This document shows positions 14,753-60,819 of a DNA stretch of 64,000 nt, one piece after another. Numbering within the stretch: the stretch's first letter is position 1; the number at the start of each line of letters is the position of its first letter. Under the pieces are notes generated by a model. It was not told where the DNA came from and ran no database searches. It saw only the letters and a list, made by a program, of their open reading frames with translations. The stretch covers positions 241,554 to 305,553 of the forward strand of contig NZ_JAVCAP010000014.1 of assembly GCF_030769565.1 (NCBI RefSeq). The letters are read 5' to 3'. The stretch is from Methylophilus aquaticus (GTDB taxonomy: Bacteria; Pseudomonadota; Gammaproteobacteria; Burkholderiales; Methylophilaceae). The translations under genes were made by a program, and so were the position numbers.

Positions 14753-15460
14753 TTAATTCGTATGTAAGCCAGCTAATCTTTTGCGATCACTCATTTGAAT
14801 TGCTGTCATCATGTCATTAATAAATATTTCTTCTGAAGCATACGCCTGATTGATATTAGTGTTTTCAATAGATACTCTAAAAAGTAATCCATCAGTGATG
14901 TATCCTCTTAGCCCATATTTGACTTGCTCAAATTTAAGTTGCCATGAGTTGGTTACAACTTTGGTGCCAACCATTGCCCAGTAGCTTACGCTTTCAATTC
15001 TGCCAGGTTTCTCAGCGATGAATTGATTAACAGGAATAGGGCCAAATTTCGTTATTAATTGAGATTTGCTTTTATGTTTTTTTACTTGATAGCCCTGTGC
15101 TGGATAGCAAATTTCTGGCATGTGAATTGTACTTTTATTGGATTGATTTTCAGTATAGGCAACTGAGAGCATGATTGGTGGGTGATTGTTTTTGACGTAC
15201 AGGCGTGATAACACCTGGTCATAGGTCTTGCTAAGCGTATCGTTCAGTTCTGGGTTGACTATATAATTAGCTTTTGTGTTTATTTCATGCCAGCCATTAA
15301 ATTCCCTTGGTATCATTTTTTCAATGTCAACAGGCGATAGTTTGGAACTCAACTCAACATAGGGTTTAAAATACGTTGCCATGAGCATGGCAACGATCAT
15401 TAATGACATTGTAGAAATGTAAAGTAGTTTGCCAGATCTTGAGCTTGCCTTCGAGGTCAT
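14753..15460 (-). CDS. epsI: Exosortase-associated protein EpsI, B type (copy 1)
   Basis: The product is 235 residues. A single N-terminal membrane anchor (LLYISTMSLMIVAMLMA) leads to a periplasmic EpsI domain, with the characteristic PREFNGW motif, the conserved Cys in PEICYPAQG, and YWAMVG. EpsI proteins always accompany exosortases and are presumed partners, but their biochemistry is unknown. The ATG at 15460 starts four bases after the xrtB stop. It is clearly homologous to the second copy at 60826 (PEVCYPAQG, Y-G-F/L-x-G-x-x-x-D-G-x-L-x-R-V-S) but much diverged, arguing for an old duplication or separate acquisition. Confidence 0.88.
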   Translation of the reverse strand: MTSKASSRSGKLLYISTMSLMIVAMLMATYFKPYVELSSKLSPVDIEKMIPREFNGWHEINTKANYIVNPELNDTLSKTYDQVLSRLYVKNNHPPIMLSVAYTENQSNKSTIHMPEICYPAQGYQVKKHKSKSQLITKFGPIPVNQFIAEKPGRIESVSYWAMVGTKVVTNSWQLKFEQVKYGLRGYITDGLLFRVSIENTNINQAYASEEIFINDMMTAIQMSDRKRLAGLHTN

Positions 15461-15464
15461 ATTT

Positions 15465-16325
15465 TCAATATCGTTTTTGAATGAACTGATCAATTGCCAT
15501 AATGAGTGACAATGCAATTAAAAACAGAGTTAGCCCAGAAAATTTATGCATAAAGCCTTGTCCGATATGATCACCAAAATGGTAAGTTAGAAGTGCAAGA
15601 ATAATGACTCTTATTAAGTTTGAAATGAAGGAAATCGGAATGATCAATAAGCCAAGAACAATATTTCTTTTCCACGAATCATGTTTTACCAAATTAAGGT
15701 AGAGTAAGCCCATAGCCTCCAATGATACTAATGTTTTCATCCCCGCACATGCATCTGCAACCAGAAGTTGGTAATTTCCAATTTGTAGAATCACACCATT
15801 TCGACCGATGGGATAGTCAGCATAAAATAGAATTAGTTCGGTAGTGTAAGAAATCGCAAGCTTGAGTGGTAATGTGATGGCATCTAAAATTTGAGCAGGT
15901 AATGGAATTGTAAAGATTAAGAAAAAAAGTGGAAACCAAAAGTGTTTCGCTGTCTGAATACCTCTAAATTGAGTGATTAGAGCAGATATAACCAAGATTT
16001 GTGATCCAACAGAAAGCGCTGGTATTGATTGTGAACGGCCGAACACGTACATAATAATGCCGATAAGTAATGTTATCTGCGCAATGATGCTATATTTTTG
16101 TATGCATTCAGGGTCATCGTTTTGATTAAAAAAAATATGTTTCTCTTGCCAAAATAAATAGCCTGAAATGAATATCACTAACCAAGCATAAGATTGAGAT
16201 TCAAGCAGTGTGCTATCTGAAAAGTAATCCCAATAAACGGGTATGTACATCGATAGGAATGTGATGAAAAGACTAATGTTCCAGGAGGAAGGTCGTTGAT
16301 TAAATGATAAAAGAGTTTTTCGCAT
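15465..16325 (-). CDS. xrtB: Exosortase B (copy 1)
   Basis: This 286-residue polytopic membrane protein has about eight hydrophobic segments. The exosortase catalytic triad is intact: Cys193 in VADACAGM, Arg239 in NLIRV and His260 in QGFMHKF. In the family it recognises the C-terminal PEP-CTERM tail and cleaves it, probably transferring the protein to a cell-surface acceptor. Compared with copy 2 (59959) it lacks the conserved His-Gly near the end of the first periplasmic loop (AHGP there, SYAW here). It is cotranscribed with epsD upstream and epsI downstream and has no sugar genes in its unit. Confidence 0.93.
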   Translation of the reverse strand: MRKTLLSFNQRPSSWNISLFITFLSMYIPVYWDYFSDSTLLESQSYAWLVIFISGYLFWQEKHIFFNQNDDPECIQKYSIIAQITLLIGIIMYVFGRSQSIPALSVGSQILVISALITQFRGIQTAKHFWFPLFFLIFTIPLPAQILDAITLPLKLAISYTTELILFYADYPIGRNGVILQIGNYQLLVADACAGMKTLVSLEAMGLLYLNLVKHDSWKRNIVLGLLIIPISFISNLIRVIILALLTYHFGDHIGQGFMHKFSGLTLFLIALSLIMAIDQFIQKRY

Positions 16326-16341
16326 TTTTGCCCTAGAGCAT

Positions 16342-17178
16342 CTACTTTACTGTCTGTGTGTACTCTATATTTGAAATGGTTCTAAGACGTGTGATTTCTT
16401 GAGTGCGTATTCTGGAAGTAATTTCTGAAGTTAATTTTTCGAAAAGCAATTTTGTATATAGACTTTCCGTCATAACCGAATCATTTATTTCTATAATTCC
16501 ACATAATTCAGGATGATTGTCAATTGCTGAATATAAAAATTGGTTTGTTTGCAATTTGTTGCCATATTTTCTATAGAAACTGTCCTGCATATGCTCAGCA
16601 GGAACTTCAGCAGTTGTTACTACGAAGTTTAAATTCTCATCGATGAGCGACTGTTTCACATCATTAAACGTTTTTAAATTGAATACTATTCTATCAATCA
16701 ATGGCAGGCTGACTGAGTTCGTGATTTTGATCGTTTCAATTTTGTAAGTTTTATGGTTTAAAAAAATATCAGGACGTTGAGTCTTAATTTCCTCAATAAT
16801 TTCATTATCGTCTAAAGATACTTTTGATCGTAACTCATTCAGATAAACTTTCGCATATATTCTGGCTTTTTCATCTTCAAGCTCTTGAATCACTTCTGGT
16901 TTACGATTGGTGTTTAATTTGAGTGATTGATTTACAAGAAGTTGCCTGTTTATCAAATCCTCGATTGTCTCATTGACGTTTTTGACTATGTTATGATCAA
17001 GGTTATATTTGATTTCACTATTGAGCTGATGGGCAGTAATTTCAACCCCATCAACCGTGGCAATAATCTGGGATGGATAAATATCTTCCTGGCTACAACC
17101 TGATAATATTGCTGCGAATGATAAGCATCTTGCTAAAATAATATAATTCTTAAAAAAAATTTGCGTATGCATAATCAC
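16342..17178 (-). CDS. epsD: EpsD-like peptidyl-prolyl isomerase family lipoprotein (copy 1)
   Basis: The product is 278 residues with a lipoprotein signal ending L-S-G-C (Cys about 28). The SurA/PrsA-type N-terminal chaperone region follows (A-T-V-D-G-V-E-I-T, L-I-N-R-Q-L-L-V), and then a region corresponding to the parvulin domain but hardly conserved, so isomerase activity is doubtful. The EpsD family (PEP-CTERM-associated) probably helps fold or deliver exported proteins. Copy 2 at 55639 shares NRQLLV/DRQLLVQ and the E-V-I/V-Q motif. It is first in the epsD-xrtB-epsI unit, divergent from the TPR lipoprotein gene. Confidence 0.78.
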   Translation of the reverse strand: MIMHTQIFFKNYIILARCLSFAAILSGCSQEDIYPSQIIATVDGVEITAHQLNSEIKYNLDHNIVKNVNETIEDLINRQLLVNQSLKLNTNRKPEVIQELEDEKARIYAKVYLNELRSKVSLDDNEIIEEIKTQRPDIFLNHKTYKIETIKITNSVSLPLIDRIVFNLKTFNDVKQSLIDENLNFVVTTAEVPAEHMQDSFYRKYGNKLQTNQFLYSAIDNHPELCGIIEINDSVMTESLYTKLLFEKLTSEITSRIRTQEITRLRTISNIEYTQTVK

Positions 17179-17253
17179 CGAGAATAATAGTTATACCTAG
17201 TCTTATTTTACAAGTTTGTTTATCTGAATGATACAAGCGACTATTTAAAGTTG

Positions 17254-17284
17254 ATTATGTGCCTTTTACTAAGCACCGCATAAT
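17254..17284 (+). promoter_or_regulatory. Leader hairpin between the divergent epsD and TPR genes
   Basis: ATTATGTGC pairs with GCAC-CGC-ATAAT (a 9-bp stem with a 3-base bulge, loop CTTTTACTAA) and is followed by seven T. It lies in the leader of the TPR gene. It could act as an attenuator or simply be part of the divergent promoter region. Confidence 0.3.
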
Positions 17285-17330
17285 TTTTTTAGCTATTCTG
17301 TGAGAGTTTGTTTTGCCTTCAAAAACATTT

Positions 17331-19712
17331 ATGAAAATTAAAAACCTGATAGTTCTGATTATTGCCTTGATTAGCGTAGGGTGCATGTCGCCTGAGAATG
17401 AAGCTAGCAGCCTAGTGGAGGATGGTAATGAAATTTTAAAAGAAGGTGATATTTCAAAAGCAGTTCAAAAGTTTAAACAAGCTCTTCAGATTGAAGATAA
17501 AAATATCGAGGCTATGTGGGGACTAACGCTCGCCTATGAGAAGCTCGGCGATTTCAAACAGATGTTTGAGTTGTGCAAGCAAGTTGCGATTATGCAACCT
17601 CACAATATAGCCGCTAACTTAAAATTGGCTAACTTATATTTGGTTGTTAACGACCGTAAGTCTGTTGATCAGCAACTGACTGTGCTTGACATGTATGGAA
17701 AAAATAATCCAGATGTGATCGCATTTAAATCGGAAGTAGCATTTAAATATGGGCACTTTGAAGAAGCCAATCAACTGGCGATGGCTGCTTTAAGTCTGGA
17801 TAAGAAAAACAGCTTTGCCTTCATGACGCTGGCCAAGATTGCCGGATCTTCCGGTGACTACCCGAAGGCAATAAACTATATTGACAAAGCAATCTCTCTC
17901 AATCCTAATAATACAAGTCTATATTTGGCAAAACTATCATTGCATCAGGACAGTCATGCAATTAATGAAATTCCAGATGTGTATAAAAAGTTAATAGCAA
18001 TTAATCCTCAAAATTTTGAATTTAAAAGGGATCTTGCCTTATTTTACGTTTCCAATTCGGACTATCAGCAAGCTGAAGTTTTGTTAAATGATGTGCTGAA
18101 GAAGTTTCCTGAAAATATTGGCACTCAAATTGGTCTTGTGAAGTTATATTACAAAACAAAAGGAAAGCAACGTGCCCTTGATCTACTCGACAAATTTAAT
18201 AGGGCGCTACCTGACAACGTTCCATTGATGTTTGCATCCTATGAGTTTCTTGAGGAAATCGGGGAGTATGAGCGGTCTAGAGCGATCATTAAAGCCATTA
18301 TCGCCAATTCTAAAGATCTGGACAGTAGATTGCGAGCCATGGCTTTTATGGCAGACGATTTTCTTGATCGTGGTTATCGAGAAGAGGCGGAAAGTTTAAT
18401 CTCACAAGTCTTATATAAAGATGCTAACAATAAAAATGCTTTGTTGATCAAAGCCAAGCTTAATATGTTTGATCAGGATTTTAATGCTGCCATTTCTGTA
18501 TACAGAAATATTCTGGATGATTATCCCAATGATATTTCTACTATGATTGGTCTTGGTCAGGCATATCGTGCTTCAGGCGCAATAGAGCTAGCCAATGAAA
18601 TTTTTTATCAGGCATACAAGTTGGGTGGAAGTATCAATGAAGTCAAAGACGGCTATATTGAGTTTCTTGTAAAACATAATAAGTCCGGCAGAGCTGTTGA
18701 GTTGCTAGAAGATGCTTCTAGAAAGTCTCCTGGGAATATTGTGCTTTTAAATCAATTGGTACTTTTAAAGGCTTTAAATGGGGACTCTAAAGGCGCAAAT
18801 GCAATCATGGATAAAATGATTAAGAGTCCAATAACCGCACCTATTGCATATCAGCTTCAAGCGGAAATTTTTGAGAAAGATAATCAGCTTGATGCAGCTT
18901 TGCAAGCATATATGATGGCATTCAAATTAGATCCAAAACAAAATTTAAATGTCTCTAGTATCGTAAGAGTTTACGCTAAAAAAAATGACTTTCAGCATGC
19001 GCTGATTTTTTTAAGAGAAATCCTAGAAAAGACACCTAATAACTATGAGTATGCGTTACTTAATGCAGTTACACTATCCAAAGTAAATAGTGAAAAAGGT
19101 GTTGAAAGTCTCGAATTGCTCGTGAAGCAAGTGCCAAACAGAGAAGAAGGGTATGTTGAATTAGCAAACGGACTCATTTTAAAAAATGACATTGAATCTG
19201 CCAAGCGCTTACTAATAGAGGCGAGTGGGCATTTTCCTGATAGTATTTTAATAAAAACAAGTCTTGCTGATTGTTTGATGAAGCTTAAAGCTTTTGATCA
19301 AGCAATAAATATATTTCAAGACTTGGTCAATAAATACCCTTCTCAAGTCATTTTTAGAAATAATCTGGCAGGGTTGCTGCTGGATTATGCAAATAGTGAA
19401 AAGGATCTGAAGCGAGCATATAACCTTACAGATACCTTTGTTAATGCTGATTTGCCTGTTTTGAAAGATACAGTCGCATGGTCGATGTTTAAGCAAGGAA
19501 GGTATGAGATAGCTGCTAAAAAAATAAACGAAGCTATAGAAGAGTTGCCAGATCAGATTATTTTTTACTATCACGCATATCAAATATATACGGAAACAGG
19601 GCAAACAAAATTAGCGAACAATGCTCTTATTAAGGCATTTAAGCTCCCTTTAAATGATGTGGCATATATACCGGCGTCCTTTGAACAATTGCTTAAACAA
19701 AAAAAGGTATGA
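17331..19712 (+). CDS. prsT: PEP-CTERM-system TPR-repeat lipoprotein (PrsT-like)
   Basis: The product is 793 residues. A signal peptide with lipobox ISVGC puts the Cys at about 18. The remainder is an almost continuous array of tetratricopeptide repeats (for example AVQKFKQALQIEDKNIEAMWGL, shown in part: AVQKFKQAL; later AINYIDKAISLNPNN, AISVYRNILDDYP). This length and layout match the large TPR lipoprotein family tied to exosortase loci (PrsT). The role is probably as an outer-membrane or periplasmic scaffold for sorting or polymer export; this is inference. A paralogue of similar size is at 46043, next to xrtD. The ATG at 17331 is taken over an upstream TTG because the signal peptide starts there. 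Confidence 0.87.
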   Translation: MKIKNLIVLIIALISVGCMSPENEASSLVEDGNEILKEGDISKAVQKFKQALQIEDKNIEAMWGLTLAYEKLGDFKQMFELCKQVAIMQPHNIAANLKLANLYLVVNDRKSVDQQLTVLDMYGKNNPDVIAFKSEVAFKYGHFEEANQLAMAALSLDKKNSFAFMTLAKIAGSSGDYPKAINYIDKAISLNPNNTSLYLAKLSLHQDSHAINEIPDVYKKLIAINPQNFEFKRDLALFYVSNSDYQQAEVLLNDVLKKFPENIGTQIGLVKLYYKTKGKQRALDLLDKFNRALPDNVPLMFASYEFLEEIGEYERSRAIIKAIIANSKDLDSRLRAMAFMADDFLDRGYREEAESLISQVLYKDANNKNALLIKAKLNMFDQDFNAAISVYRNILDDYPNDISTMIGLGQAYRASGAIELANEIFYQAYKLGGSINEVKDGYIEFLVKHNKSGRAVELLEDASRKSPGNIVLLNQLVLLKALNGDSKGANAIMDKMIKSPITAPIAYQLQAEIFEKDNQLDAALQAYMMAFKLDPKQNLNVSSIVRVYAKKNDFQHALIFLREILEKTPNNYEYALLNAVTLSKVNSEKGVESLELLVKQVPNREEGYVELANGLILKNDIESAKRLLIEASGHFPDSILIKTSLADCLMKLKAFDQAINIFQDLVNKYPSQVIFRNNLAGLLLDYANSEKDLKRAYNLTDTFVNADLPVLKDTVAWSMFKQGRYEIAAKKINEAIEELPDQIIFYYHAYQIYTETGQTKLANNALIKAFKLPLNDVAYIPASFEQLLKQKKV

Positions 19713-19810
19713 CAAATGTTTAAATTTTGTTAGTCCAAATGGGCTATTGGCTTAATATATAGATATGTCATCATGTTCGTGTACAAAGAAGAAGAATTAA
19801 AGCAAATATA

Positions 19811-19859
19811 AATATAAGTCAAATTGCTTACTCGCAATTATTCAAAATTGACTTATATT
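19811..19859 (+). promoter_or_regulatory. Long inverted repeat before the PEP-CTERM gene
   Basis: Perfect 12-bp arms AATATAAGTCAA (19811-19822) and TTGACTTATATT (19848-19859) enclose a second, inner stem AATTGC / GCAATT with a 6-base loop. Together they form a long hairpin with one 8-base bulge, ending 49 bases before the ATG. There is no T run, so it is not a normal terminator. It could be an operator or a stabilising leader structure. Confidence 0.5.
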
Positions 19860-19908
19860 GTGAATTGTGTTCAAATTAGTTAAATATTTTAAATCGAGGA
19901 GAAGTGTA

Positions 19909-20589
19909 ATGAAGATTCCAGAAAGCATTAACACTACAAACAAATATGCTTACGGTACTCTTTTGAGTCTGGGGGCATTTTTTGTATCAGGTAACGTAGA
20001 TGCTGCAGTGGTCACTAGTTCGTCGTCATCCACGTTGACTGGCGCTGGGACATTAAACGTTACTAATGGCGTTGCTGTCGTTAATTCCGTAAGTAATAAT
20101 GGTAAGGCAAGCTATTCTGGTTCAGTAAAGCTTGATTCACCTACTGGTTTTGTAACAACAAAGTTGAGTGCTGGAACTGTAATTGGTGCATTTATGGATC
20201 CTGTCTTCTCTTCTTCTAATACAATTTACGCACAGTCAAAATCTGGAAAAAGTGCTTCTACGGTGACCACCGGATCTACCGGTGCCGGTATTTATGGTTT
20301 TAGTTTTGTAAACGGTGGTCAAACTAATTATGGTTGGGCTAATATCAGTGTTTCAGATAACGGTTCTCGCGATTCTTACGCATCATTAGTCGCAACAATT
20401 AATTCTTTTGCCTATACAACAGCTGGCGAAATGATTCGTGCTGGTACCAATCACGTATATGTTGCTGCTGTACCTGAGGCTGATACCTTAGCAATGCTTG
20501 CAGCTGGCATTGGGTTGGTGGGGTTTAGCGCCAAACGACGTCGTGAGAAGTTTTTAAATATCAAGCAATCAAATTTGCAAGCTGCTTAA
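19909..20589 (+). CDS. PEP-CTERM sorting-domain protein
   Basis: The product is 226 residues. An N-terminal signal segment (YGTLLSLGAFFVSGNVDAA) leads to a Ser/Thr/Gly-rich beta domain. The tail has the complete sorting signal VPEADTLAML, then a hydrophobic helix AAGIGLVGF and a basic cluster AKRRRE. The P-E-A-D-T form is the variant common in exosortase B organisms, so the adjacent xrtB is the likely processing enzyme. The mature protein should be a surface or matrix protein; the N-terminal domain matches no family I know. An unusual 16-residue extension follows the basic cluster. GAGGAGAA gives a strong ribosome-binding site before ATG 19909. Confidence 0.88.
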   Translation: MKIPESINTTNKYAYGTLLSLGAFFVSGNVDAAVVTSSSSSTLTGAGTLNVTNGVAVVNSVSNNGKASYSGSVKLDSPTGFVTTKLSAGTVIGAFMDPVFSSSNTIYAQSKSGKSASTVTTGSTGAGIYGFSFVNGGQTNYGWANISVSDNGSRDSYASLVATINSFAYTTAGEMIRAGTNHVYVAAVPEADTLAMLAAGIGLVGFSAKRRREKFLNIKQSNLQAA

Positions 20590-20604
20590 ATAGTGGTTTT
20601 TTGA

Positions 20605-21495
20605 ATGACGCAGCAGGTTGAGTATTCTGTCAGACCTGCTGCTCCTCATGAGTGGCGACACTGTCTATCATTTATCCCCGAAGTTTTAACCTCTTCTAAC
20701 CTGCCTGAAGTTTTCTTTATTGCTGAAAAGTCGTCAACGAATAATATTATTGGCGTAGCATGCATAGTACCGCACCTTAGGGATGTTGAATTTCCTGGGT
20801 TTCCATGTTTTATAAGAGTCCTGAATGAATACTGTAGGTTAGGTATTGGGCGAGCGCTTGTAAAGGAAATTGCAAAACATGTTTCAGAATGGGATGTCCC
20901 CTATGTTTTAAGTTGGCAATCCTATCCAATTTTATCTCAACAACATTATTTTTTATCAAAAGCTGGCTTTGAACCATACTTGAGTTTGTATAGTTTTGAG
21001 GTTGATAGGGCGTCTGCTCATATTTTATTGCGTTTGCTAGATAAATATTTAAGTCGAAAGAATGATAATACTCAATATACTTTAGTGGCAGTCAAACCCA
21101 CAGCTATGAGTGAAGAGGTCAAATTATATAGTCAACACTTCTTAGTTTCCTATGATGAATCCTATCGTAAACTTGAAGCAATGTTGAAAGCAGAAAAAAC
21201 CTCCCAGCTGTCTGCAAGTATTTATCTGGCAGATCGTTGTTTAGGATTTATTGTCGGAATTCTAGATCAGGATGGGATTCCAAAAGTTGACTTTTGGGTA
21301 ACACAAAAAAACATCGTTCATACCCCGGTTGCACTCATATTGCTTAGCTATTTTGTAAAGAATGCATATGATATGGGCTATTTACATGCAAGATTTGAAT
21401 GTAATGATAAAGCTCGCTCAACGCTCAATGTGGCTAAAAGGTTGAATGCTCGAACAATTTTGCACTCGCAATCCTTTGCTCTTCCAACTCTATGA
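20605..21495 (+). CDS. Tandem GNAT-family acyltransferase
   Basis: This 296-residue cytoplasmic protein has residues ~8-130 forming a GNAT domain with the acyl-CoA loop E-Y-C-R-L-G-I-G-R-A-L-V and motif B ...HYFLSKAGFEPY. The second half (~150-296) has a similar secondary-structure pattern but no clear R-x-x-G-x-G/A loop, so it looks like a degenerate second GNAT unit. The substrate is unknown. The gene lies 15 bases after the PEP-CTERM gene and overlaps the next gene by four bases (ATGA), so the three probably form one operon and act together on the surface protein, its glycan or a signal. Confidence 0.7.
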   Translation: MTQQVEYSVRPAAPHEWRHCLSFIPEVLTSSNLPEVFFIAEKSSTNNIIGVACIVPHLRDVEFPGFPCFIRVLNEYCRLGIGRALVKEIAKHVSEWDVPYVLSWQSYPILSQQHYFLSKAGFEPYLSLYSFEVDRASAHILLRLLDKYLSRKNDNTQYTLVAVKPTAMSEEVKLYSQHFLVSYDESYRKLEAMLKAEKTSQLSASIYLADRCLGFIVGILDQDGIPKVDFWVTQKNIVHTPVALILLSYFVKNAYDMGYLHARFECNDKARSTLNVAKRLNARTILHSQSFALPTL

Positions 21496-23390
21496 GTGCC
21501 CAGTCTAAAGTAATCCTGCTAGGCATTGATCAGCTCGATTGGAGGTGTCTGCAAGTTTTTTTAGATCGAGGGTTTCTGCCTAATTTTGAGCGGTTAATGA
21601 ATATTAGCTCGTCTGGACCTTTTGTATCCGATCCATACCTGTCTAAAAGTTCGGTTTGGACAACAATCCTTACTGGCTATACGCCGTCATTTCATGGCGT
21701 ATTAAGTGATCTTCAGTATGGGCCTGGAGGTTTGTCAGCACAAGAAGTTACCAATCGTCAAGTGCGTGTGCCAAGAGTATGGGATTATGCTTCTCAGCGA
21801 AACTTAAAATCCAATATTATGGGTTGGCCAGCATTGTCGCCAGCATCGAGTAATCATGGATTAACAGTTGTGAATGGTATTCAGCATATTGATTCTGCAG
21901 CGATTGATATTTGGCCGTTATCTCCGAATGCAGTAAGTCCAAAATCATGGAGAGGCAATGTGCTGGATAATCGAGTGTTTGCTGATGACATTCCCGCTGA
22001 ATATATTCAGCAGTTGCTCAAATATCTGTCAGAAGAAGAGAAGAGTGCAATTAAGGCGCCTGCGCGATTACTTTTTTCACAGCTGTTAAGTCTGCATAGT
22101 ATAGGTATGAAGCTAGGTGAAGATGAGGACAATCCTTGGCAGTTATTGGCATTGCGTTTTGATACTCTTGATTATGTTTCAAATCTACCCAGTCAATTAA
22201 ATTTTAATGGAAATACACTAAGTTATCTCCTTGGGTGGTATCAATTTATTGATGCTATGCTGGCTAAGTATTTAAGTTATAAGTGTGAAGAAGATTATTT
22301 AGTTCTTGTTTCGGATTGTGGTGTTAATCCTGCACTCATTGGTTACCCAACTGGACTTGCGAGCAAAGCTATGCCGGGGGTATTGTTTTTCGTTGGTCCA
22401 GATATACCACAAGACAAGCCACTGGACACAGTCTCAATTCTTGATATTGCCCCAACTATATTAGCGATGTTGGGTATTGAGCATGGAGATATGCGCGGAA
22501 ACACTCTGTTTGATCTTAAATCAAAACATTCTGTGCGATTATTCGTGGATACGCCGCCAATTGAAGAGATTGATGCTGAGCAACTAAAACCTTTATACAG
22601 ACGTTCAAACTTATATACTAGTCAAAGCAGTTATGAGAGTGCGGTAGTCGGAGTTGATCTCTCAAGTTTAGAGAGGGTTAGCGACATGCTCTACTCTGAG
22701 TTGCTAAGTATTTTAGCTGAAGTGAAATTCCAACAGGGTCATCTGGGACAATGCGTTGATTTGTGTGAAAAGTCACTACAGATTCGTCCCGATATAATTA
22801 ATGTACTTATTTTGTTATGCCGAGCCTATGCAATTTTAGGTGATTTTAAAACTGCTCGGCAAATTATCGATAAATACCGTCACATTGCCATACACCCCAT
22901 TTGGGAAAATATCATTGAAGGCTTTTACGCATATGCGGCTGGAGATTGGAAAAGTGCAACTAGCGCATTTAATAAGCTTGCATTAATTGAGCACGTACCA
23001 ATTAATGCACAATTATGGCTGGCTGAAGTGCTAATTAAACAAGAAAACTATTCGGCGGCTGTTAAACATCTGGAGTTGGCAGTAAAAAGCAGTATTGAGT
23101 TGGCCGTTGCGTTAGAGAGAATGGCTTTCGTGAAAATTGCGGTGGGTGATTTTCCTCAGGCATTAGAGGTTTTGAATTTGGCTATTAGTTACAATCCTGA
23201 CAAAGCTCAGTTGTTTGTATTGAGATTTGAAGTTCAAGCTGCTTTGGGCGATTTTAATCGAGCCAAAGGAGATCTGTTCAGGGCGCTGAAGTTGCAACCT
23301 GGGGTGATTACTGAAAAGCAAGCTAACAAAATATTGATGTTGCGGCAGGGTGTTAAAAATCAAGCGCATTTTGAATTAATAAAGTTTTAA
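21492..23390 (+). CDS. Alkaline-phosphatase-superfamily pseudoenzyme with TPR repeats
   Basis: The product is 632 residues. The N-terminal ~340 residues follow the type I phosphodiesterase/alkaline phosphatase fold seen in TPR-linked family members: LLGIDQLDW, VWTTILTGYTPSFHGV, GWPALSP, RFDTLDY and SILDIAPTILAMLGI. Key ligand positions are altered: the S-D-H-G motif reads SDCG, the D-H-x-x-H motif reads DYVSN, the H-R-x-x-G motif reads A-S-K-A-M-P-G, and the nucleophile region before VW is K-S-S. It is therefore probably catalytically dead or uses different chemistry. Residues ~390-610 are TPR repeats. There is no signal peptide, so it is cytoplasmic. It is last in the operon with the GNAT and PEP-CTERM genes. 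Confidence 0.75.
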   Translation: MSAQSKVILLGIDQLDWRCLQVFLDRGFLPNFERLMNISSSGPFVSDPYLSKSSVWTTILTGYTPSFHGVLSDLQYGPGGLSAQEVTNRQVRVPRVWDYASQRNLKSNIMGWPALSPASSNHGLTVVNGIQHIDSAAIDIWPLSPNAVSPKSWRGNVLDNRVFADDIPAEYIQQLLKYLSEEEKSAIKAPARLLFSQLLSLHSIGMKLGEDEDNPWQLLALRFDTLDYVSNLPSQLNFNGNTLSYLLGWYQFIDAMLAKYLSYKCEEDYLVLVSDCGVNPALIGYPTGLASKAMPGVLFFVGPDIPQDKPLDTVSILDIAPTILAMLGIEHGDMRGNTLFDLKSKHSVRLFVDTPPIEEIDAEQLKPLYRRSNLYTSQSSYESAVVGVDLSSLERVSDMLYSELLSILAEVKFQQGHLGQCVDLCEKSLQIRPDIINVLILLCRAYAILGDFKTARQIIDKYRHIAIHPIWENIIEGFYAYAAGDWKSATSAFNKLALIEHVPINAQLWLAEVLIKQENYSAAVKHLELAVKSSIELAVALERMAFVKIAVGDFPQALEVLNLAISYNPDKAQLFVLRFEVQAALGDFNRAKGDLFRALKLQPGVITEKQANKILMLRQGVKNQAHFELIKF

Positions 23391-23717
23391 ATGAGTTGTT
23401 GATTACTTCTCTAAACTATTAGTTTTATTCGGTTAATCAACACTTGATGTTTTTACATAACATTTCGTAAAACTATTTTGCTGCTGGATAAAAATCTAAC
23501 ACATTTTTCAATATAATGATAATATTGCATTAACTGAAAATGGCTTTATATTTAATGAATGTAATTATTCATACCCTACGTGTGATTCGACTTAATATTA
23601 GTACTTTCGGGCTATTGTTAAGAATAAAAAAAAATATATGATGGACACATGGTTTGAAGTTTAAGTTTCCTGGTTTTAGTAGTTCACTTTAATGTTTTAA
23701 TTTTTTTAGGAGAAGTT
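23391..23717 (+). other. AT-rich intergenic region before the VPLPA-CTERM gene
   Basis: No gene is visible in these 327 bases. The region holds an 8-bp inverted repeat GTTGATTA / TAATCAAC (23398-23405 and 23434-23441), a TATAAT at 23512 without a matching -35, and the 9-mer TTGTTAAGA (23615-23623), which recurs as one arm of the dyad before the wza-like gene. AGGAG (23708-23712) is the ribosome-binding site of the next gene. The promoter of that gene must lie here, but I cannot place it. Confidence 0.5.
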
Positions 23718-24215
23718 ATGAAAAAAGCTCTTGTTACAGCCTTGATGCTTTCTGGCTTGTTTGCAGCACAAGCGAATGCAGCATTTGTTACCGAAACCTC
23801 TGATGCAAGTTACAATCTGGGTACAACAGGTTCGATTTCTTTTATTGGATCTAGTTCCGATGAATTTTTTGATGTGAAAACTACAAACACACCAAAAACA
23901 TTCCTGTCTCTATCTATGTCAGGTATTAATGATTTGATTTTTGCAGTATATGTTAACTTAGCTACTCCTGGATCTGGTTCAGTATTGTTTGATGACTCTA
24001 GAGTTGTGTACACACGTACATTAACCAGCGTTAATCCAACATCAACCCTGAACTTTGTACCTGGTAACTGGGTAATCAAGCAATTGTCACAATTACCACC
24101 TTACTCAACTGTTGTGGCTTCTGTTCCAGTTCCTGCTGCAGCATGGTTGTTTGGTTCTGCTTTGGTTGGTGCAGGTGCTTTGCGCCGCAAGCAAAAAGTT
24201 GCCTTGGCAGTGTAA
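23718..24215 (+). CDS. VPLPA-CTERM (PEP-CTERM variant) sorting-domain protein
   Basis: The product is 165 residues. A clean signal peptide MKKALVTALMLSGLFAAQANA is given here by position: residues 1-21, cleavage after A-N-A. A beta-rich domain of ~110 residues follows with no family I recognise. The tail has the sorting signal VPVPAAAWLFGSAL, hydrophobic helix and L-R-R-K-Q-K basic end. The V-P-x-P-A-A-x-W-L-F form is the VPLPA-CTERM type, whose known partner is exosortase D, found at 44481. It is probably an abundant surface or matrix protein. It has its own promoter region and is closed by a strong terminator, so it is monocistronic. Confidence 0.88.
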   Translation: MKKALVTALMLSGLFAAQANAAFVTETSDASYNLGTTGSISFIGSSSDEFFDVKTTNTPKTFLSLSMSGINDLIFAVYVNLATPGSGSVLFDDSRVVYTRTLTSVNPTSTLNFVPGNWVIKQLSQLPPYSTVVASVPVPAAAWLFGSALVGAGALRRKQKVALAV

Positions 24216-24321: not shown

Positions 24322-24909
24322 ATGCTAAAAAAAATTAGAATTTGCCTCTTTGTTTGTTTCTCACTCATTTTCTCTTTATTAGTGGTGGCGGATGAGCATG
24401 ACTCAGCTCCCACACAGGTAAGTTTGTTGTACAGAATTCAGCCTGGGGATGTGTTAAATATTTCCGTATGGGGTGAAGAAACCATGCAATATAAAGAGCT
24501 TCGCGTGTTGCCGGATGGTACTTTGAGTTATCCATTAACTGGTGTTATTGAAGTCAAAGGAAAAACCATAGGCGAAGTTTCGCAGCTGATTGCTGAAAAA
24601 CTCAAGGTATTTATTCCAGAGCCTAATGTAAATGTTATGGTGCATGCAGCGGAAGGCAATTTGGCTTATGTGATAGGTAAGGTGACAAAGTCTGGACCTA
24701 TTTCTCTATTGCAAGACACAACAGTACTACAAGCCCTGAGTTTGTCAGGCCCTTTCGATAAGTTTGCAGATAAGTCTGCGATTAAAATCATTCGCCTGCA
24801 TGGAGGCCAACAAGAGCTAATCAAGTTTGATTACGATGAGGTGTCCAAAGGTGATAACCTTAATAGTAATATTTTTCTCAAGCCTGGTGACACTATTGTT
24901 GTTCCTTAA
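24322..24909 (+). CDS. Polysaccharide export protein, Wza-like (outer membrane auxiliary)
   Basis: The product is 195 residues. A signal peptide (through L-L-V-V-A-D) leads to the Poly_export domain YRIQPGDVLNISVWGE and PDGTLSYPLTG, with one SLBB domain (AYVIGKVTKSGP) and the end motif LKPGDTIVVP. There is no clear lipobox Cys, and the short one-SLBB form lacks the membrane-spanning C-terminal helix of E. coli Wza, so the neighbouring beta-barrel protein may supply the channel. It is first in the XrtD-linked cluster. Confidence 0.9.
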   Translation: MLKKIRICLFVCFSLIFSLLVVADEHDSAPTQVSLLYRIQPGDVLNISVWGEETMQYKELRVLPDGTLSYPLTGVIEVKGKTIGEVSQLIAEKLKVFIPEPNVNVMVHAAEGNLAYVIGKVTKSGPISLLQDTTVLQALSLSGPFDKFADKSAIKIIRLHGGQQELIKFDYDEVSKGDNLNSNIFLKPGDTIVVP

Positions 24910-35079: not shown

Positions 35080-36678
35080 ATGAAAAGACGTGCATTCGTA
35101 AAGTCCGGGATTGCAATTGCCGTGGCAGGCGCATTTCTATCTCGGCAGCCTATGTTTGCTTTTGGTAAAGCCTTGCTTAATCCCAATAAAGTCAAATTTG
35201 TATCTCCTGCAAGTATGGGGATTAACCTTGCTGCAATTTCATATTGGGGATCTGAGTTACCTTTTACGGATATTTTCAAAAGTGCAGGTGAGTGGGTAAG
35301 TAATGCGAAAGCAATGCAATGGGGTTCTGGCCCCAAGCTCGATATTGATGAGCATGGCTGGGTTAAAAGGCTCGATGCTGCTGGTTTTGCGACCAAGATG
35401 GTTGCTTTGGCTGGTTTATATCCAACTGGTATTTATACCATTTTATTTGATGGCGAAGGTGAAGTTCAGCTAGCTTTTAATGTTGGCAAAGTAATAAAAG
35501 CCTTACCTGGCAAGTTGGTGGTAAAAGTTAACTCCGCAAGTATGCCACTGGCTGTCAACCTTAACAAAACTAATCCCAAAAATTACGTCAGAAATATTCG
35601 CGTTTACTTGCCAGAATATCAAAGCTCTGAAGGTGTTACATACACAAATGAGTTTATAGATAGATGGGCCGGCATGGCTTGTATTCGGTTTATGGATTTT
35701 ATTGCTACAAATAACTCTAAAATTCAACATTGGTCTGATCGACCCATGCTGGAGGATGCATCATATAGTCTTAAAGGCGTTCCTTTGGAGCTAATGGTTG
35801 ATTTGGCTAACAAACTAGATGCTGATGCCTGGTTTTGTATTCCACATCTTGCAGATGATGATTATGTTGAAAAATATATTACATACATTGACCAGCATTT
35901 AAAACCAGGTCTTCGTGCTTGGATTGAATACTCAAATGAGGTGTGGAACTCTGTTTTTAACCAGTCAAAGTATTGCGTTGATATCGGGGTTAAAACGGCA
36001 CTTGCCCAATCTCCGAGGGACGCGGGCTTGTTAGCTTACGCAAGGCGTTGTAGAGATATATTCAAAATAGTTGCTAAAGTCTCTGACAATAAAAAAAGAT
36101 ATGTGTGCGTTGTTGCCTCACAAGCCGCTAATCCTTATGTGTCAGAAAAAATCCTTTCTTTTGAAGATTTAGTCGAATATGCTGATGCTTTGGCTATTGC
36201 ACCTTACTTTTCATTTAACGTGGCACCGAATGATGTGCTTAATGATAAGGAGGTAATGAATTGGAGTTTGGATAAGTTATTTGAATATCTTGAAACGGTT
36301 AAGCTCCCTGAAGCAAAAAAATGGATAGAAGATAGCAAAAAAGTAAGTGAACGTTATGGCCTTTCACTCGTTGCGTATGAGGCAGGCCAACATTTAACCG
36401 CATACAGGGGTGCTGAAAACAATACTCAACTTGTTGATTTGTTTTCTAAAGCGAATGCACACCCTCGCATGGGAAAGCTTTATAGTCGCTATTTAAAAGA
36501 TTGGGAGCAGTCTGGTGGTGGTTTGCTTTGCGCTTTCTCAAGTATGAGTGTATGGAGTAAATGGGGCAGTTGGGGGTTGCTGGAACGTCCAACTGATAAT
36601 CCAGAACAATCAGCCAAGTTTAAATCTGTGGTTGAGTGGGCGCAGTCTCATGGTCAATCAATAAAACTGAAAAAATAG
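35080..36678 (+). CDS. Tat-exported glycoside-hydrolase-like protein
   Basis: The product is 532 residues. The N-terminus MKRRAFVKSG is a twin-arginine motif (R-R-x-F-x-K) followed by a hydrophobic stretch, so it should be exported folded. The body resembles TIM-barrel glycosidases of clan GH-A and proteins labelled cellulose-binding. WIEYSNEVWN offers the Asn-Glu acid/base pair and LVAYEAGQHL a second Glu as nucleophile; S-W-G-L-L-E-R-P lies near the end. A periplasmic trimming or lysis enzyme for the polymer is plausible. Its place among glycosyltransferase genes supports this, but activity is unproven. Confidence 0.7.
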   Translation: MKRRAFVKSGIAIAVAGAFLSRQPMFAFGKALLNPNKVKFVSPASMGINLAAISYWGSELPFTDIFKSAGEWVSNAKAMQWGSGPKLDIDEHGWVKRLDAAGFATKMVALAGLYPTGIYTILFDGEGEVQLAFNVGKVIKALPGKLVVKVNSASMPLAVNLNKTNPKNYVRNIRVYLPEYQSSEGVTYTNEFIDRWAGMACIRFMDFIATNNSKIQHWSDRPMLEDASYSLKGVPLELMVDLANKLDADAWFCIPHLADDDYVEKYITYIDQHLKPGLRAWIEYSNEVWNSVFNQSKYCVDIGVKTALAQSPRDAGLLAYARRCRDIFKIVAKVSDNKKRYVCVVASQAANPYVSEKILSFEDLVEYADALAIAPYFSFNVAPNDVLNDKEVMNWSLDKLFEYLETVKLPEAKKWIEDSKKVSERYGLSLVAYEAGQHLTAYRGAENNTQLVDLFSKANAHPRMGKLYSRYLKDWEQSGGGLLCAFSSMSVWSKWGSWGLLERPTDNPEQSAKFKSVVEWAQSHGQSIKLKK

Positions 36679-44480: not shown

Positions 44481-46040
44481 TTGGGTGCTTATCTGCAAAA
44501 ATTATCGGCTATTAAAAATAATACAGCATTGCTGATAGCTGTTATTACACTCTTAATTGGACTGGTTTCTTATTGGGGGGGGCTGACTGAGTTACTTTTC
44601 CGCTGGAATAAACAGGAAGAGTACGGCCATGGTTACTTTATCCCGTTGATTACAATATGGTTTCTATGGGAGAGAAAAGCTGCACTCATTGCAGCTGTCA
44701 GCCAAGGATCTTACTGGGGCGTTGGGCTACTACTATTCGCATCATTTTTATTGCTTACTGGAGAGGTTACGGCTTTTTATCTCGCTATTCAGTTAGGTTT
44801 TATTCTATTTCTAATGAGTATAACCCTTGCCTATGGAGGCAGGTCACTCTTTAAATTGTGTTTTACACCCATTTTTTTTCTTGTCTTTTGTATCCCGCTG
44901 CCATATTTCATGGAGGCATTATTAACGGCTCGTTTGCAATTACTTTCATCTGAGTTTGGAGTGATGTTTTTACGCGCGATTGGTACGAGCGTTTATCTGG
45001 AAGGTAATGTGATTGATCTTGGCCAGTATCAACTGCAAGTAGTTGAGGCATGCAGTGGGCTTAGATATCTTTATCCATTGATGGGCATCGCCTTTTTGAT
45101 TGCGTATATGTATCAGGCAGCTATTTGGAAAAAAGGGCTGGTATTTATCAGTTCTATACCGATCACTGTAGTTATGAATAGTGTACGTATAGCTGTAGTG
45201 GGGGTGCTGGTTGATCATTGGGGGAGCGAGATGGCCGATGGTTTTCTACATTATTTTGAAGGCTGGATTGTATTCATGATTTGTTTGGGCATACTTGTCG
45301 CAGAGGTGTGGATTTTAGAGCGCATGGGTAGTGGGCGTAACCTGATGACAGCCATTGATACTCCCAAAGTTGGCGTGCCGTTGTTAGGCAGGTCGTCTTC
45401 CCTATCCTTAAAACCATTATGGGCAGCGTTTTTTTTCACTCTGATTACTTGTGGAATTACACTAGCGTTGAGTGATCGAGTGGAGATACAGCCGCCACAT
45501 AAACCACTAGATACATTTCCACTCAGCGTGAATGGTTGGGTGGGTGAGCAGGGGTCTCTAGGTAAAAATGAGCTTTCAATCTTAGGTTTGCAAGACTATT
45601 TGTTGGCAGATTACTTTCGGCCAGAGGAGAATAAAGTTGTTAATTATTATCTGGCTTACTATGCTTCACAGCGTAAAGGAGTTTCTCCGCATTCTCCACA
45701 AGTATGCATGCCTGGTGGTGGTTGGGTGATTGCATCGCTTGAAAGAATACCTATGATTGACTCTAAGGGTAAAAAGTTTACAGTTAATAAAGTATTAATT
45801 AAAAAGGGGCAGGACAAGCAAGTCGTCTATTACTGGTATCAGCAACGTGGCAGAAAAATAGCAAGCGAATATCTGATGAAGTTTTATTTGTTTAAAGATG
45901 CAATCTTTATGAATCGCACTGATGGTGCGTTGGTCAGATTAGTTACAAATGCTAATGATGATGTTGCGGCAGCAGATAAACGACTGTCTGACTTTATCAA
46001 GGTATCTTTGCCATTATTAAACGATTATATTCCAGAGTGA
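44481..46040 (+). CDS. xrtD: Exosortase D fused to an EpsI domain (VPLPA-CTERM specific)
   Basis: The product is 519 residues. The N-terminal half is an exosortase with about eight membrane helices and an intact triad: Cys191 in VEACSGLRY, Arg236 in NSVRIA, His257 in GFLHYFEG; the conserved G-H-G is at 49-51. The C-terminal ~210 residues are a periplasmic EpsI domain with its conserved Cys (409, in SPQVCMPGGGW). This fused layout defines the XrtD family, whose substrates carry VPLPA-CTERM tails like the protein at 23718. It starts at TTG 44481 with GAAAGG eight bases upstream; no in-frame alternative exists after the upstream stop. Confidence 0.93.
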   Translation: MGAYLQKLSAIKNNTALLIAVITLLIGLVSYWGGLTELLFRWNKQEEYGHGYFIPLITIWFLWERKAALIAAVSQGSYWGVGLLLFASFLLLTGEVTAFYLAIQLGFILFLMSITLAYGGRSLFKLCFTPIFFLVFCIPLPYFMEALLTARLQLLSSEFGVMFLRAIGTSVYLEGNVIDLGQYQLQVVEACSGLRYLYPLMGIAFLIAYMYQAAIWKKGLVFISSIPITVVMNSVRIAVVGVLVDHWGSEMADGFLHYFEGWIVFMICLGILVAEVWILERMGSGRNLMTAIDTPKVGVPLLGRSSSLSLKPLWAAFFFTLITCGITLALSDRVEIQPPHKPLDTFPLSVNGWVGEQGSLGKNELSILGLQDYLLADYFRPEENKVVNYYLAYYASQRKGVSPHSPQVCMPGGGWVIASLERIPMIDSKGKKFTVNKVLIKKGQDKQVVYYWYQQRGRKIASEYLMKFYLFKDAIFMNRTDGALVRLVTNANDDVAAADKRLSDFIKVSLPLLNDYIPE

Positions 46041-51356: not shown

Positions 51357-52601
51357 TTATCTGATTTCAAACTTAAAATAACCACCATTACCGCTAGTGA
51401 GTTCAGGTGGGATATTAATCTGGTTAATCCCACGCTTGATTTGAAACTCCGCAATTTTTGTGTAAGCGGTAGTAAGACTCTCAGTATAGTGTAAGAATAA
51501 TCTGGTTTGGTTTTCTGCAAACACTTTAACAGTGTACTGCTTATCATTTAGCTTGGAGAATACTGGTTTAAAAGGTGAGGATAATGGCTCACCAATAAAT
51601 AGTCCTTGACCAGGCCATGCAACACTTTTCCAGTAAGCTTCCAGCAGGCTATTGCCTTTAAGGTAGTAATACATTGCAGCAGCAGGATTGGGGAACTTCT
51701 GTAAATGATTACATGGTTCTACTACAGTGCCATAACTTGCTGTGGCACCAGCTTTTAACCAAGCAAGACTTACTGATTGCCCATGCTTGCCATATAGGTC
51801 ACCCCCAAAAGAGGTAAGATGATCTGCGATTGCCCCAGGCAGAAACTCAAGTTGTTCCAATCTGGTTACTTGAGGTGCTCCGATAAAGTAAAACAGAATG
51901 TTTTTACGTTTTAGGGGGCTCGTACTAACTTGTTTAGTAACATAGGTCAAAAAAACAGAATTAAAGTCTTCCCGAGTCAAGTTGTAATTGGCAGCACGTA
52001 CATCGTAGTTTCCACCATTACCTTTGATTAAATAGCTATTGCCCGAAGGAAAACTGGAGTCCGCGTGAATGCCGCGATCAATCAACTGTAGGACTTCCTG
52101 TACACTGTCGCCCGCTAGCATCATGCTAGGTCGAATTTTAAAATCATTGAATGGCGTAGTGGATGTAGTGTTGAAATAGGGGCTTTCACGTGTTGGATTA
52201 CAACCACCACAATAGGCTTGATCGAATCCGAAAGAGATCGCACTAGTCATTGACATGCAAACAACCCTATATGGTTTGGTCCAGCTAATGGCGTATCCCT
52301 GAATATGACTTTTAGTTTTTGCTTCAACTTCTTGTTTGATTGTGACAAAGTCTGCTTGGCTCATTTCGTTTTGAGCAGGGTTGAAATGAAGTTGTATGAG
52401 ATTTTCTGATGGAATACCTCTTTTTTTAGCATAGATTTTGGCTACCTCTACAGACTGAGAGTCATCTACATTAACCAAAATAGCGAGCTCGCTGGGAGTG
52501 ATTCCCACTCTGTCAAATTCGGCAAAGTAATCACCTGCCGAGACGTACGTGGCAATTAGAGTGAAAAAAAGGCCGCCGAAAAAGCTAAGCTTTACGTTCA
52601 T
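51357..52601 (-). CDS. TIGR03790 family exported protein (exosortase-associated, unknown function)
   Basis: The product is 414 residues from ATG 52601, which begins a signal peptide (MNVKLSFFGGLFFTLIATYVSAG, by position residues 1-23); the frame is open 11 codons further upstream but that adds a charged stretch before the signal. Conserved marks include V-N-V-D-D-S-Q-S-V-E-V-A, YAISWTKPYRV and R-P-S-M-M-L-A-G-D-S, agreeing with TIGR03790. That family is described as occurring only in genomes with exosortases; no activity is known. It is on the same strand as and upstream-adjacent to the wcaJ-type gene with a 114-base gap. Confidence 0.82.
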   Translation of the reverse strand: MNVKLSFFGGLFFTLIATYVSAGDYFAEFDRVGITPSELAILVNVDDSQSVEVAKIYAKKRGIPSENLIQLHFNPAQNEMSQADFVTIKQEVEAKTKSHIQGYAISWTKPYRVVCMSMTSAISFGFDQAYCGGCNPTRESPYFNTTSTTPFNDFKIRPSMMLAGDSVQEVLQLIDRGIHADSSFPSGNSYLIKGNGGNYDVRAANYNLTREDFNSVFLTYVTKQVSTSPLKRKNILFYFIGAPQVTRLEQLEFLPGAIADHLTSFGGDLYGKHGQSVSLAWLKAGATASYGTVVEPCNHLQKFPNPAAAMYYYLKGNSLLEAYWKSVAWPGQGLFIGEPLSSPFKPVFSKLNDKQYTVKVFAENQTRLFLHYTESLTTAYTKIAEFQIKRGINQINIPPELTSGNGGYFKFEIR

Positions 52602-52715
52602 TTTATGGAATATCTTTAACCATTTAATGGACATATCAGGCTTATAGCAAAACTATGTGCACATAACGGTTCAATATAATCACAGTATTCTCATTTTATG
52701 AATTAGCCATTGTTT

Positions 52716-59958: not shown

Positions 59959-60819
59959 ATGGTGATTAACTTTAATGCCGTCAGGCCATACCTTATCAAC
60001 TGGTGGCCGCTACTGCTTGGTTTTGCTGCATTAGTGCTTCCAACATATGCCAATTTGTTTACCAATATCTGGAATGAGGCAGATCAGGCACATGGGCCAT
60101 TGGTATTAATGGTTGTACTGTATCTCTTTTATGACAAAAGGCAGGCATTCAGCCAACCCTCAAGCCCAGCCCCGCGCGTTGGCTGGGTGATTTTTGCATT
60201 GAGTTTACTGATCTACATACTGGGACGTTCGCAAGACATTCTGATGCTGGATATGGGGGCGCAAACCCTGTTAATCGTCGCCCTGATTTTACAGTTCAAA
60301 GGCTGGACAACGCTAAAGGCAGTCTGGTTTCCACTTTTCTTCATGGTGTTCATGATCCCCTTGCCAGGATTTTTTGTGGACGCAGTCACTATGCCGATGA
60401 AAATAGCTGTTTCACAAGTCGCCGAGCATGTCCTGTATTGGTTTGATTATCCGATTGCCAGAAACGGCGTCATTCTGCAAATCGGGCAATACCAGTTACT
60501 GGTCGCAGATGCGTGTGCCGGCATGCATACCTTAATCTCGCTGGAAGCGTTAGGACTGTTATATTTAAATTTGGTCAAACATGACTCCCTGGCAAGAAAC
60601 GTAACACTTGCGCTGTTTATCGTTCCCATTTCATTCACTGCCAACACGATCCGTGTCATTGCCATCACACTGGTGACCTATTACTTTGGCGATGCAGTAG
60701 GGCAGGGCTTTGTCCATGGTTTTGCCGGTATGGTGTTATTTCTTGTTGCATTGCTCTTGATCATATTTATTGACTCAACCATTCAACGTTTGGTCAAGCT
60801 GAACAATGCAAAAGGATAA
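59959..60819 (+). CDS. xrtB: Exosortase B (copy 2, canonical eps operon)
   Basis: This 286-residue protein has about eight membrane helices and the catalytic triad Cys186 (VADACAGM), Arg232 (NTIRV) and His253 (GFVHGF). The early A-H-G-P motif (44-47) is present, unlike copy 1. It processes PEP-CTERM proteins linked to this polymer. It starts six bases after the epsG stop with AAGG upstream, and epsI follows six bases later. Confidence 0.96.
   Translation: MVINFNAVRPYLINWWPLLLGFAALVLPTYANLFTNIWNEADQAHGPLVLMVVLYLFYDKRQAFSQPSSPAPRVGWVIFALSLLIYILGRSQDILMLDMGAQTLLIVALILQFKGWTTLKAVWFPLFFMVFMIPLPGFFVDAVTMPMKIAVSQVAEHVLYWFDYPIARNGVILQIGQYQLLVADACAGMHTLISLEALGLLYLNLVKHDSLARNVTLALFIVPISFTANTIRVIAITLVTYYFGDAVGQGFVHGFAGMVLFLVALLLIIFIDSTIQRLVKLNNAKG

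Follow-up and report, generated by a model that had tools for sequence, protein, structure and literature searches.

What do a GNAT protein and an AP-fold protein that has lost catalytic residues do directly behind the gene of one PEP-CTERM protein? The question is raised by a stretch of 64,000 nucleotides from Methylophilus aquaticus, which we call the window; coordinates below are positions in it unless a locus is named. Its forward strand carries, in this order, the genes of a PEP-CTERM protein, here PEP1 (19909–20589), of a GNAT protein (20605–21495) and of a protein that joins an AP fold to a TPR region (21492–23390). A gap of 15 bp separates PEP1 from the GNAT gene, which in turn overlaps the AP/TPR gene by 4 bp (ATGA). 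The three genes have the look of a compact cassette for protein modification that has not been studied. We state three things firmly: the trio recurs (n = 3), it occurs away from the exosortase XrtB, and its AP domains have lost catalytic residues.

An earlier reading of this DNA, the original prediction, had seen here a self-contained exosortase B module without polysaccharide genes. Its gene coordinates, divergent strands, 15-bp gap and ATGA overlap are confirmed. PEP1 itself matches PF07589 at 24.7 bits (cut-off 20.7) and gave no match to TIGR02595, the PEP_CTERM domain model of NCBIfam. The longest open reading frame (ORF) of PEP1 begins at GTG 19867; the start is probably ATG 19909, which is preceded by GAGGAG.

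Recurrence of the trio

Is the trio found elsewhere? We found it in three genomes, namely that of the window and two others, G793 and G1241, which represent three different families (f1, f53 and f199). In all three the order is PEP-CTERM, GNAT, AP/TPR with a 4-bp overlap of the last two genes, and the gap between the first two is 15 bp in the window, 19 bp in G793 and 12 bp in G1241. Pairwise BLASTP E-values range from 1e-74 to 2e-33 for the GNAT proteins, from 1e-175 to 9e-59 for the AP proteins and from 5e-18 to 3e-6 for the PEP-CTERM proteins. The GNAT and AP proteins of G793 and G1241 are 42–46% identical to each other, and either set is 25–28% identical to that of the window. That the GNAT and AP/TPR genes form a pair tied to a neighbouring PEP-CTERM gene, as had been proposed, is therefore true of three out of three genomes.

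How widely is the pair distributed? Searched with the window GNAT, 300 genomes of the order and 187 of the family returned the window's own genome alone (1/187). A two-sequence GNAT profile returned the own genome and G1241 among 370 genomes of the class (2/370), and only G793 among 147 genomes of the family to which G793 belongs; the genome samples of these searches overlap. The route to G793 was an AP profile, which in 398 genomes of the phylum gave three matches at E ≤ 1e-30: the own genome, G793 and G513. Flippase- and polymerase-like ORFs surround the AP gene of G513, and inspection of the ORF lists showed no GNAT/AP pair there. A plasmid-borne copy of the trio was also considered and rejected, since 72,556 plasmid records held no GNAT match at E ≤ 1e-5.

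Does the trio belong to XrtB?

If the trio recurs, does it recur with XrtB? The gene of XrtB copy 1 (15465–16325, reverse strand; TIGR03113, 309.3 bits, cut-off 275) lies close by, and the original prediction built on this proximity a sorting system in which copy 1 is dedicated to one surface protein and the GNAT and AP/TPR proteins act as sorting factors. The copy is a genuine member by its family cut-off. The other two trios, however, lie on contigs without exosortase matches. The single exosortase match of G793 types as XrtA and is on a contig other than the trio's; the two of G1241 type as XrtA and XrtD and are on two contigs other than the trio's. XrtB is thus among the exosortase matches of neither genome (0/2), and the pair does not always neighbour xrtB as had been expected.

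How do XrtB loci look from the other side? We fetched 38 of them from the family (18 of the same genus and 20 further ones, their flanks about 10 kb long or, in some, less), and the GNAT and AP profiles matched in none (0/38). In all 18 same-genus loci xrtB comes after a kinase gene, both being part of an exopolysaccharide (EPS) operon of the kind that holds XrtB copy 2 in the window. An xrtB match appears in the gene lists of 19 of the 20 further loci; L157 has none, perhaps through a loss in ORF calling. The closest relatives of XrtB copy 1 among the fetched family loci are about 49–53% identical to it.

The tails of the genome's PEP-CTERM proteins bear on the same point. PF07589 gave 23 matches in the own genome at E ≤ 5, of which 11 exceed the cut-off. 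From the 15 best loci we read 13 tails (those of L171 and L175 were not read). Six are of the VPEP/VPEA class, PEP1 (VPEADTLAMLAAGIGLVGFSAKRRRE) included; the other seven are VP(V/I/A)P tails of VPLPA/XrtD type, one of them that of PEP2 (VPVPAAAWLFGS, VPLPA (XrtD) type), a second PEP-CTERM protein encoded just beyond the trio (23718–24215, forward strand; TIGR03370, 26.6 bits, cut-off 25.35). PEP1 shares its class with five other tails, so that it is not visibly the sole XrtB-type substrate, and the comparison does not mark it as exclusive to copy 1. The prediction had named homologues of the pair commonly lying away from exosortase genes as a finding that would tell against it; such copies were found, though in a small number (2/2). 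We conclude that no dedicated XrtB system is visible, and regard one as very improbable. We propose instead that the xrtB, epsI and epsD genes and the TPR lipoprotein gene between them and PEP1 are general sorting parts that stand outside the cassette.

The AP/TPR protein

What has become of the AP domain? That of the window matches Phosphodiest (PF01663) at 56.6 bits (cut-off 23). As a query in 300 genomes of the order it found two, the own genome and G088 (E = 1.9e-34), whose only exosortase match, an XrtA, is on another contig. A wider scan of genome contigs, led by the G088 AP domain, gave 241 relatives, from which 78 distinct loci were kept (L043 is that of G088). These loci come from many phyla, with flanks of up to 8 kb and often less, and having been chosen by likeness to the G088 domain they are biased to that branch.

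Seven positions, located by conservation, are presumably the nucleophile Ser/Thr and six metal-ligand residues of the superfamily. Of 80 relatives 79 keep all seven, the exception lacking its N-terminal part in the ORF call, as against none of the three cassette members. The residues are D, K, D, N, D, C, A in the window, D, S, -, -, D, H, L in G793 and D, S, -, -, D, H, D in G1241. The second and the last His are lost in all three, and G793 and G1241 have lost the second Asp too. In the window protein the nucleophile has become Lys and the SDHG His has become Cys besides, for an overall loss of the nucleophile and three His positions; its three Asp are kept. A sulfotransferase P-loop pattern is found in 53 of the 80 relatives, some of which are shortened or have the sulfotransferase as a separate gene, and in none of the three cassette members. 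Judged by these residues the cassette protein is, as the original prediction had it, a putative pseudoenzyme, and a conserved one.

The YGW domain and its AP/TPR partners

What do the common AP/TPR relatives accompany? The answer lies in a domain of PEP1-like exported proteins to which we gave the label YGW. A profile was built from seven tail-trimmed PEP-CTERM proteins encoded beside AP genes; G793 and G1241 supplied two of these seeds and the window none. It finds PEP1 at E = 3.7e-9. With the cassette members left out, a five-seed profile run against 4,457 ORFs still finds PEP1 (1.5e-7), the G793 protein (1.1e-6) and the G1241 protein (5.5e-6), although for PEP1 the HMMER composition-bias term is large, 15.3 against 29.3 bits. 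A structure model of PEP1 (pLDDT 61.6) places three long strands around YGW and also shows a signal helix and, at the C-terminus, another helix. PEP2 is not a match to the profile.

A YGW protein lies within 3 kb of the AP gene at 50 of the 78 loci and within 1 kb at 46. Of 84 YGW matches, 53 fall within 1 kb, where the flank makes up 145,456 of 790,423 non-AP bases; among the 44 loci whose flanks reach 3 kb or more on each side, 30 have a YGW protein within 3 kb. An exosortase-like gene is present at one of the 78 loci. In a control set of 53 loci and 750,074 bases, which combines the 38 XrtB loci fetched from the family with the 15 PEP-CTERM loci of the own genome, PEP1 is the only match, so that among those 15 it is only the locus adjoining the GNAT/AP pair that has a YGW domain. 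At 19 of the 78 loci a YGW protein within 3 kb and the small ORF described in the next section were both missing; several of these loci have short flanks, others do not. The pairing of AP/TPR and YGW proteins is common, not universal. The tails of the YGW proteins vary, and are of what we take to be PEP-CTERM-like, IPTLNEWG-like and, in Bacteroidota, T9SS-like types. We conclude that the wider AP/TPR family goes with the YGW domain and not with an exosortase.

The window conforms to this pairing: its AP protein is homologous, PEP1 has the YGW domain, and one gene, that of the GNAT protein, stands between. It shares with the AP/TPR(/sulfotransferase) loci the AP domain, the TPR region and a YGW neighbour that often has a PEP-CTERM-like tail. 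It differs from them, together with G793 and G1241, in lacking the P-loop pattern and the full catalytic set and in having the intervening GNAT gene.

Could the trio be what decay has left of the widespread YGW/AP-TPR-sulfotransferase pairing, without any function in this genome today? By kind, more catalytic positions are gone from the window AP than from the other two, nucleophile and SDHG His among them, and its GNAT was found in one of 187 family genomes, the own one. Yet all three reading frames are open, and the losses of the second and the last His are common to all three members. Those shared losses, together with identities of 42–46% between G793 and G1241 and of 25–28% to the window, speak for an old, maintained divergence rather than fresh decay, and make a remnant quite unlikely.

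Two further arrangements were seen among the AP loci. In L043 (7157–7774) and L044 (3549–4055) a protein of 168–205 amino acids is encoded between the YGW PEP-CTERM gene and the AP/TPR/sulfotransferase gene, in the place of the GNAT. Neither has an NCBIfam match, the L043/L009 protein has no Pfam match, hhalign against either GNAT half gave no relation, and the structure model is poor (pLDDT 49.4). On a contig of Planctomycetota (L046, 1513–7521) five consecutive genes that are PEP-CTERM-like by pattern, with a sixth slightly earlier, precede the AP/TPR gene.

A tail-like string in separate small proteins

Is the tail always part of the YGW protein? The string LG.LA.G..[GA][LIV]..WR occurs 32 times in the 78 AP loci and not at all in the control loci. 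Ten occurrences are the ends of YGW-profile proteins. The other 22 are in ORFs upstream of the AP gene, which we call tag ORFs, and 21 of these overlap the AP gene or end no more than 242 bp before it. Twenty tag ORFs are 56–98 amino acids long, one is of 139, and one of 275 (L104) is fused to a sulfotransferase domain. They thus appear as small, soluble-looking proteins with a PxEGxLGLLALGxxGLxxWR string just before AP/TPR(/sulfotransferase) genes, for example L107:7659–7874, L073:7750–7983, L058:7757–7990 and L104:6956–7783, with 18 more. Five of the 22 were scanned, and none exceeded a sorting-tail cut-off, the best being PFE-CTERM at 17.5 of 24 bits.

Among the 50 YGW loci, 27 have a PEP-like tail and no tag ORF, 13 another tail with a tag ORF and nine another tail without one; the one locus that has both is a false tail call. 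The pattern for the tail class was written after the tails had been seen, and it classed one other tail, that of L094, as PEP-like, the count being left as computed. The exclusion is significant by Fisher's test (p = 1.5e-5, not corrected for kinship). From this distribution, the tail and the small protein look like alternatives.

The GNAT protein

How far can the GNAT protein be identified? In the window it exceeds the cut-offs of both PF13508 (28.3 bits, cut-off 27) and PF00583 (25.2 bits, cut-off 20.7), and both homologues pass PF00583. Alignment shows an R-x-x-G-I-G string in the N-terminal GNAT domain, kept in all three proteins, which we take to be the acetyl-CoA motif. The original prediction had described a tandem GNAT; the two halves, compared by hhalign, are related with a probability of 3.8%. 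A profile of the C-terminal half gave weak PDB matches, the best being a non-GNAT protein at E = 0.62, with one GNAT at E = 1.1. A hydropathy scan found no strong membrane segment in the GNAT or AP/TPR proteins, both of which we infer to be cytosolic.

Might the GNAT protein instead make a small acylated molecule in the manner of an N-acyl amino acid synthase, with PEP1 and the AP/TPR protein handling or secreting the product? Such synthases, presumably similar to GNAT proteins in fold, would likewise put a GNAT-type gene beside a PEP-CTERM gene. There is precedent, PMC7293339 stating (after Craig et al. 2011) that synthase genes frequently adjoin PEP-CTERM/exosortase genes. Small-molecule acetyltransferases are, moreover, among the best weak PDB matches of the GNAT. 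However, the NCBIfam matches of the three GNAT proteins (E ≤ 0.1 or 0.05) include no model of an N-acyl amino acid synthase or of an acyltransferase associated with exosortases, and the GNAT gene is accompanied here by a single PEP-CTERM gene and by that of an AP/TPR pseudoenzyme. We hold this explanation to be unlikely.

A proposed mechanism

How might the three proteins work together? Encoded behind one exported protein are a GNAT protein that has its motif and a TPR region joined to a dead AP domain, which suggests a catalytic subunit, a substrate holder and a substrate. On this reading PEP1, GNAT and AP/TPR (19909–23390) would form a three-gene cassette of one exported YGW PEP-CTERM protein and two cytosolic-looking partners. 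The AP/TPR protein, its own catalysis lost, would serve as a scaffold: PEP1 would be bound by its TPR superhelix and inactive AP domain and so be brought to the GNAT; the latter, as the catalytic subunit, would acetylate or acylate PEP1 or its precursor prior to Sec export. PEP1 would then be exported and its tail cut by the exosortase that the cell happens to possess, which is XrtB or XrtD here and XrtA elsewhere. The cytosolic site, the complex, the target, the chemistry and the timing are each presumptive. We favour this reading tentatively, and would put it somewhat short of an even chance.

NatA-type N-terminal acetyltransferases consist of a GNAT subunit and a TPR scaffold. The cassette likewise pairs a GNAT protein with a TPR protein, in an analogy of working and not of membership; its TPR protein differs in also bearing a dead AP domain.

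Several observations weigh against modification of PEP1 by such a complex. The conservation of the trio is that of three genomes. The C-terminal half of the GNAT is not recognised as GNAT by its sequence and is unassigned. When the PDB was searched by sequence, protein N-acetyltransferases ranked below a probable acetyltransferase and below aminoglycoside acetyltransferases, all of them weak matches; the target could be a small molecule or another protein. Moderate hydrophobic peaks (1.67–1.74) occur in three of the six GNAT and AP/TPR proteins, one of them near the N-terminus of the G793 GNAT. The window AP retains three Asp, and a Ser flanks its nucleophile column to the left and to the right; it may possibly have a changed activity rather than none. 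Beside the common AP/TPR relatives this GNAT was found at none of the 78 loci, two of which (L043 and L044) have the other small protein in its position, and 28 of the 78 have no YGW match within 3 kb.

Could the trio be one branch of something wider? A machine of AP/TPR(/sulfotransferase) proteins, spread across many phyla, would act on YGW exported proteins and recognise the PEP-CTERM-like string P-x-x-G-x-LGLLALG-x-x-GL-x-x-WR, which would be either the YGW protein's own C-terminal tail or a separate small soluble protein encoded just ahead of the machine. The window trio would then be a branch that has diverged: its PEP-CTERM tail is of the ordinary kind, it has no sulfotransferase, and with the AP domain dead the GNAT would supply the chemistry. 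The string pattern is absent from the PEP1 tail and from the whole window, which weighs against extending recognition of the string to the window. We consider such a machine doubtful. As a PEP-CTERM system with extra parts the trio is a variant of a known system; the machine, if real, would stand apart as a separate one.

It is the tail by which PEP-CTERM proteins are recognised, and their treatment beyond sorting is largely open. A cassette of one PEP-CTERM protein, a GNAT and a conserved putative pseudoenzyme offers a concrete and testable case of substrate-specific modification. The pairing of AP/TPR(/sulfotransferase) and YGW proteins across tail types would suggest that different routes of surface anchoring share a modification step that precedes them, and if the machine exists, part of the 'exosortase sorting tail' may also dock a cytosolic modifying complex. 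In open-licence PMC text we recognised no paper on the trio or on the AP/TPR/YGW pairing, and found no published name for the latter.

The genomic neighbourhood

What surrounds the trio in the window? Upstream on the reverse strand lie genes for a B-type EpsI (14753–15517; NF045609, 226.1 bits, cut-off 220), for XrtB copy 1 and for a lipoprotein with lipobox LSGC (16342–17178). This last scores 81.2 bits with TIGR02925, under the cut-off of 108.9. Of the epsI-xrtB-epsD group first proposed, EpsI and XrtB stand, and the third member can be called EpsD-like only. On the forward strand a TPR lipoprotein with lipobox SVGC (17313–19712) scores 205.8 bits with TIGR02917, under its cut-off of 312.2, and is PrsT-like only.

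The window shares several parts with the PEP-CTERM/exosortase (EpsH) system, in which PrsT is the TPR lipoprotein: an exported protein with a PEP-CTERM tail, XrtB, EpsI, and lipoproteins of EpsD-like and TPR type, all in the vicinity of EPS genes. The trio differs in being found also far from exosortase genes. The association of PEP-CTERM, EpsH and PrsT with EPS genes is described in PMC1569441, in whose main text the words 'acetyltransferase' and 'phosphatase' were not found. In Aquincola, prsT adjoins a PEP-CTERM gene and is needed for floc formation, according to PMC9850573.

The description of the module as self-contained and without polysaccharide genes does not survive. PEP2 starts about 330 bp and an EPS cluster (24322–44450) about 930 bp past the module end, on the same strand. 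The cluster opens with a polysaccharide export gene at 24322 (PF02563) and continues with a chain-length determinant, a tyrosine kinase, a flippase, a Wzy-type polymerase and glycosyltransferases, up to an XrtD-EpsI fusion exosortase (44481–46040, forward strand; TIGR04152, 518.4 bits, cut-off 400). Farther downstream a second EPS operon holds XrtB copy 2 (59959–60819, forward strand; TIGR03113, 393.6 bits), in the arrangement of other loci of the genus.

Does the GNAT/AP pair then modify the exopolysaccharide, with the GNAT as a sugar acetyltransferase and the place beside PEP1 merely reflecting the cluster? The large cluster is 0.9 kb away, and a simple terminator scan of 23390–23718 found no site, so that transcription from the trio into the cluster is possible. 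On the other hand, a PEP-CTERM gene comes first in all three trios, and inspection of ORF lists, without a family scan, showed no EPS cluster in 20 kb around those of G793 and G1241. A role in EPS modification is accordingly rather improbable.

Two signals in and before the trio were sought and rejected. An intrinsic terminator that would split it had one weak match, inside PEP1, with six matches found in the region against 6.7 expected. For a sigma-54/PrsR-type site, scanned with what we take to be the consensus, none of 67 matches (at most two mismatches) fell within 19713–19866, before PEP1; 49.9 were expected (s.d. 6.3), and two of 100 shuffles reached 67.

All three exosortase (PF09721) matches of the 2.96-Mb assembly are within the window: two of XrtB and one of XrtD, which share about 49 kb of it (14753–64000) with two EPS export/assembly sets. 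The GC content falls from about 0.45–0.55 before 14 kb to about 0.32–0.41 over 14–48 kb, a drop that may mark an acquired EPS region. Inside the EPS cluster, a 532-amino-acid protein (35080–36678) has a twin-arginine-like start (MKRRAF) and no Pfam match at E ≤ 1e-4. Between the two EPS blocks lies a gene of the TIGR03790 family (51357–52634, reverse strand; 229.5 bits, cut-off 67), relatives of which also occur in two other XrtB loci (L158 and L165).

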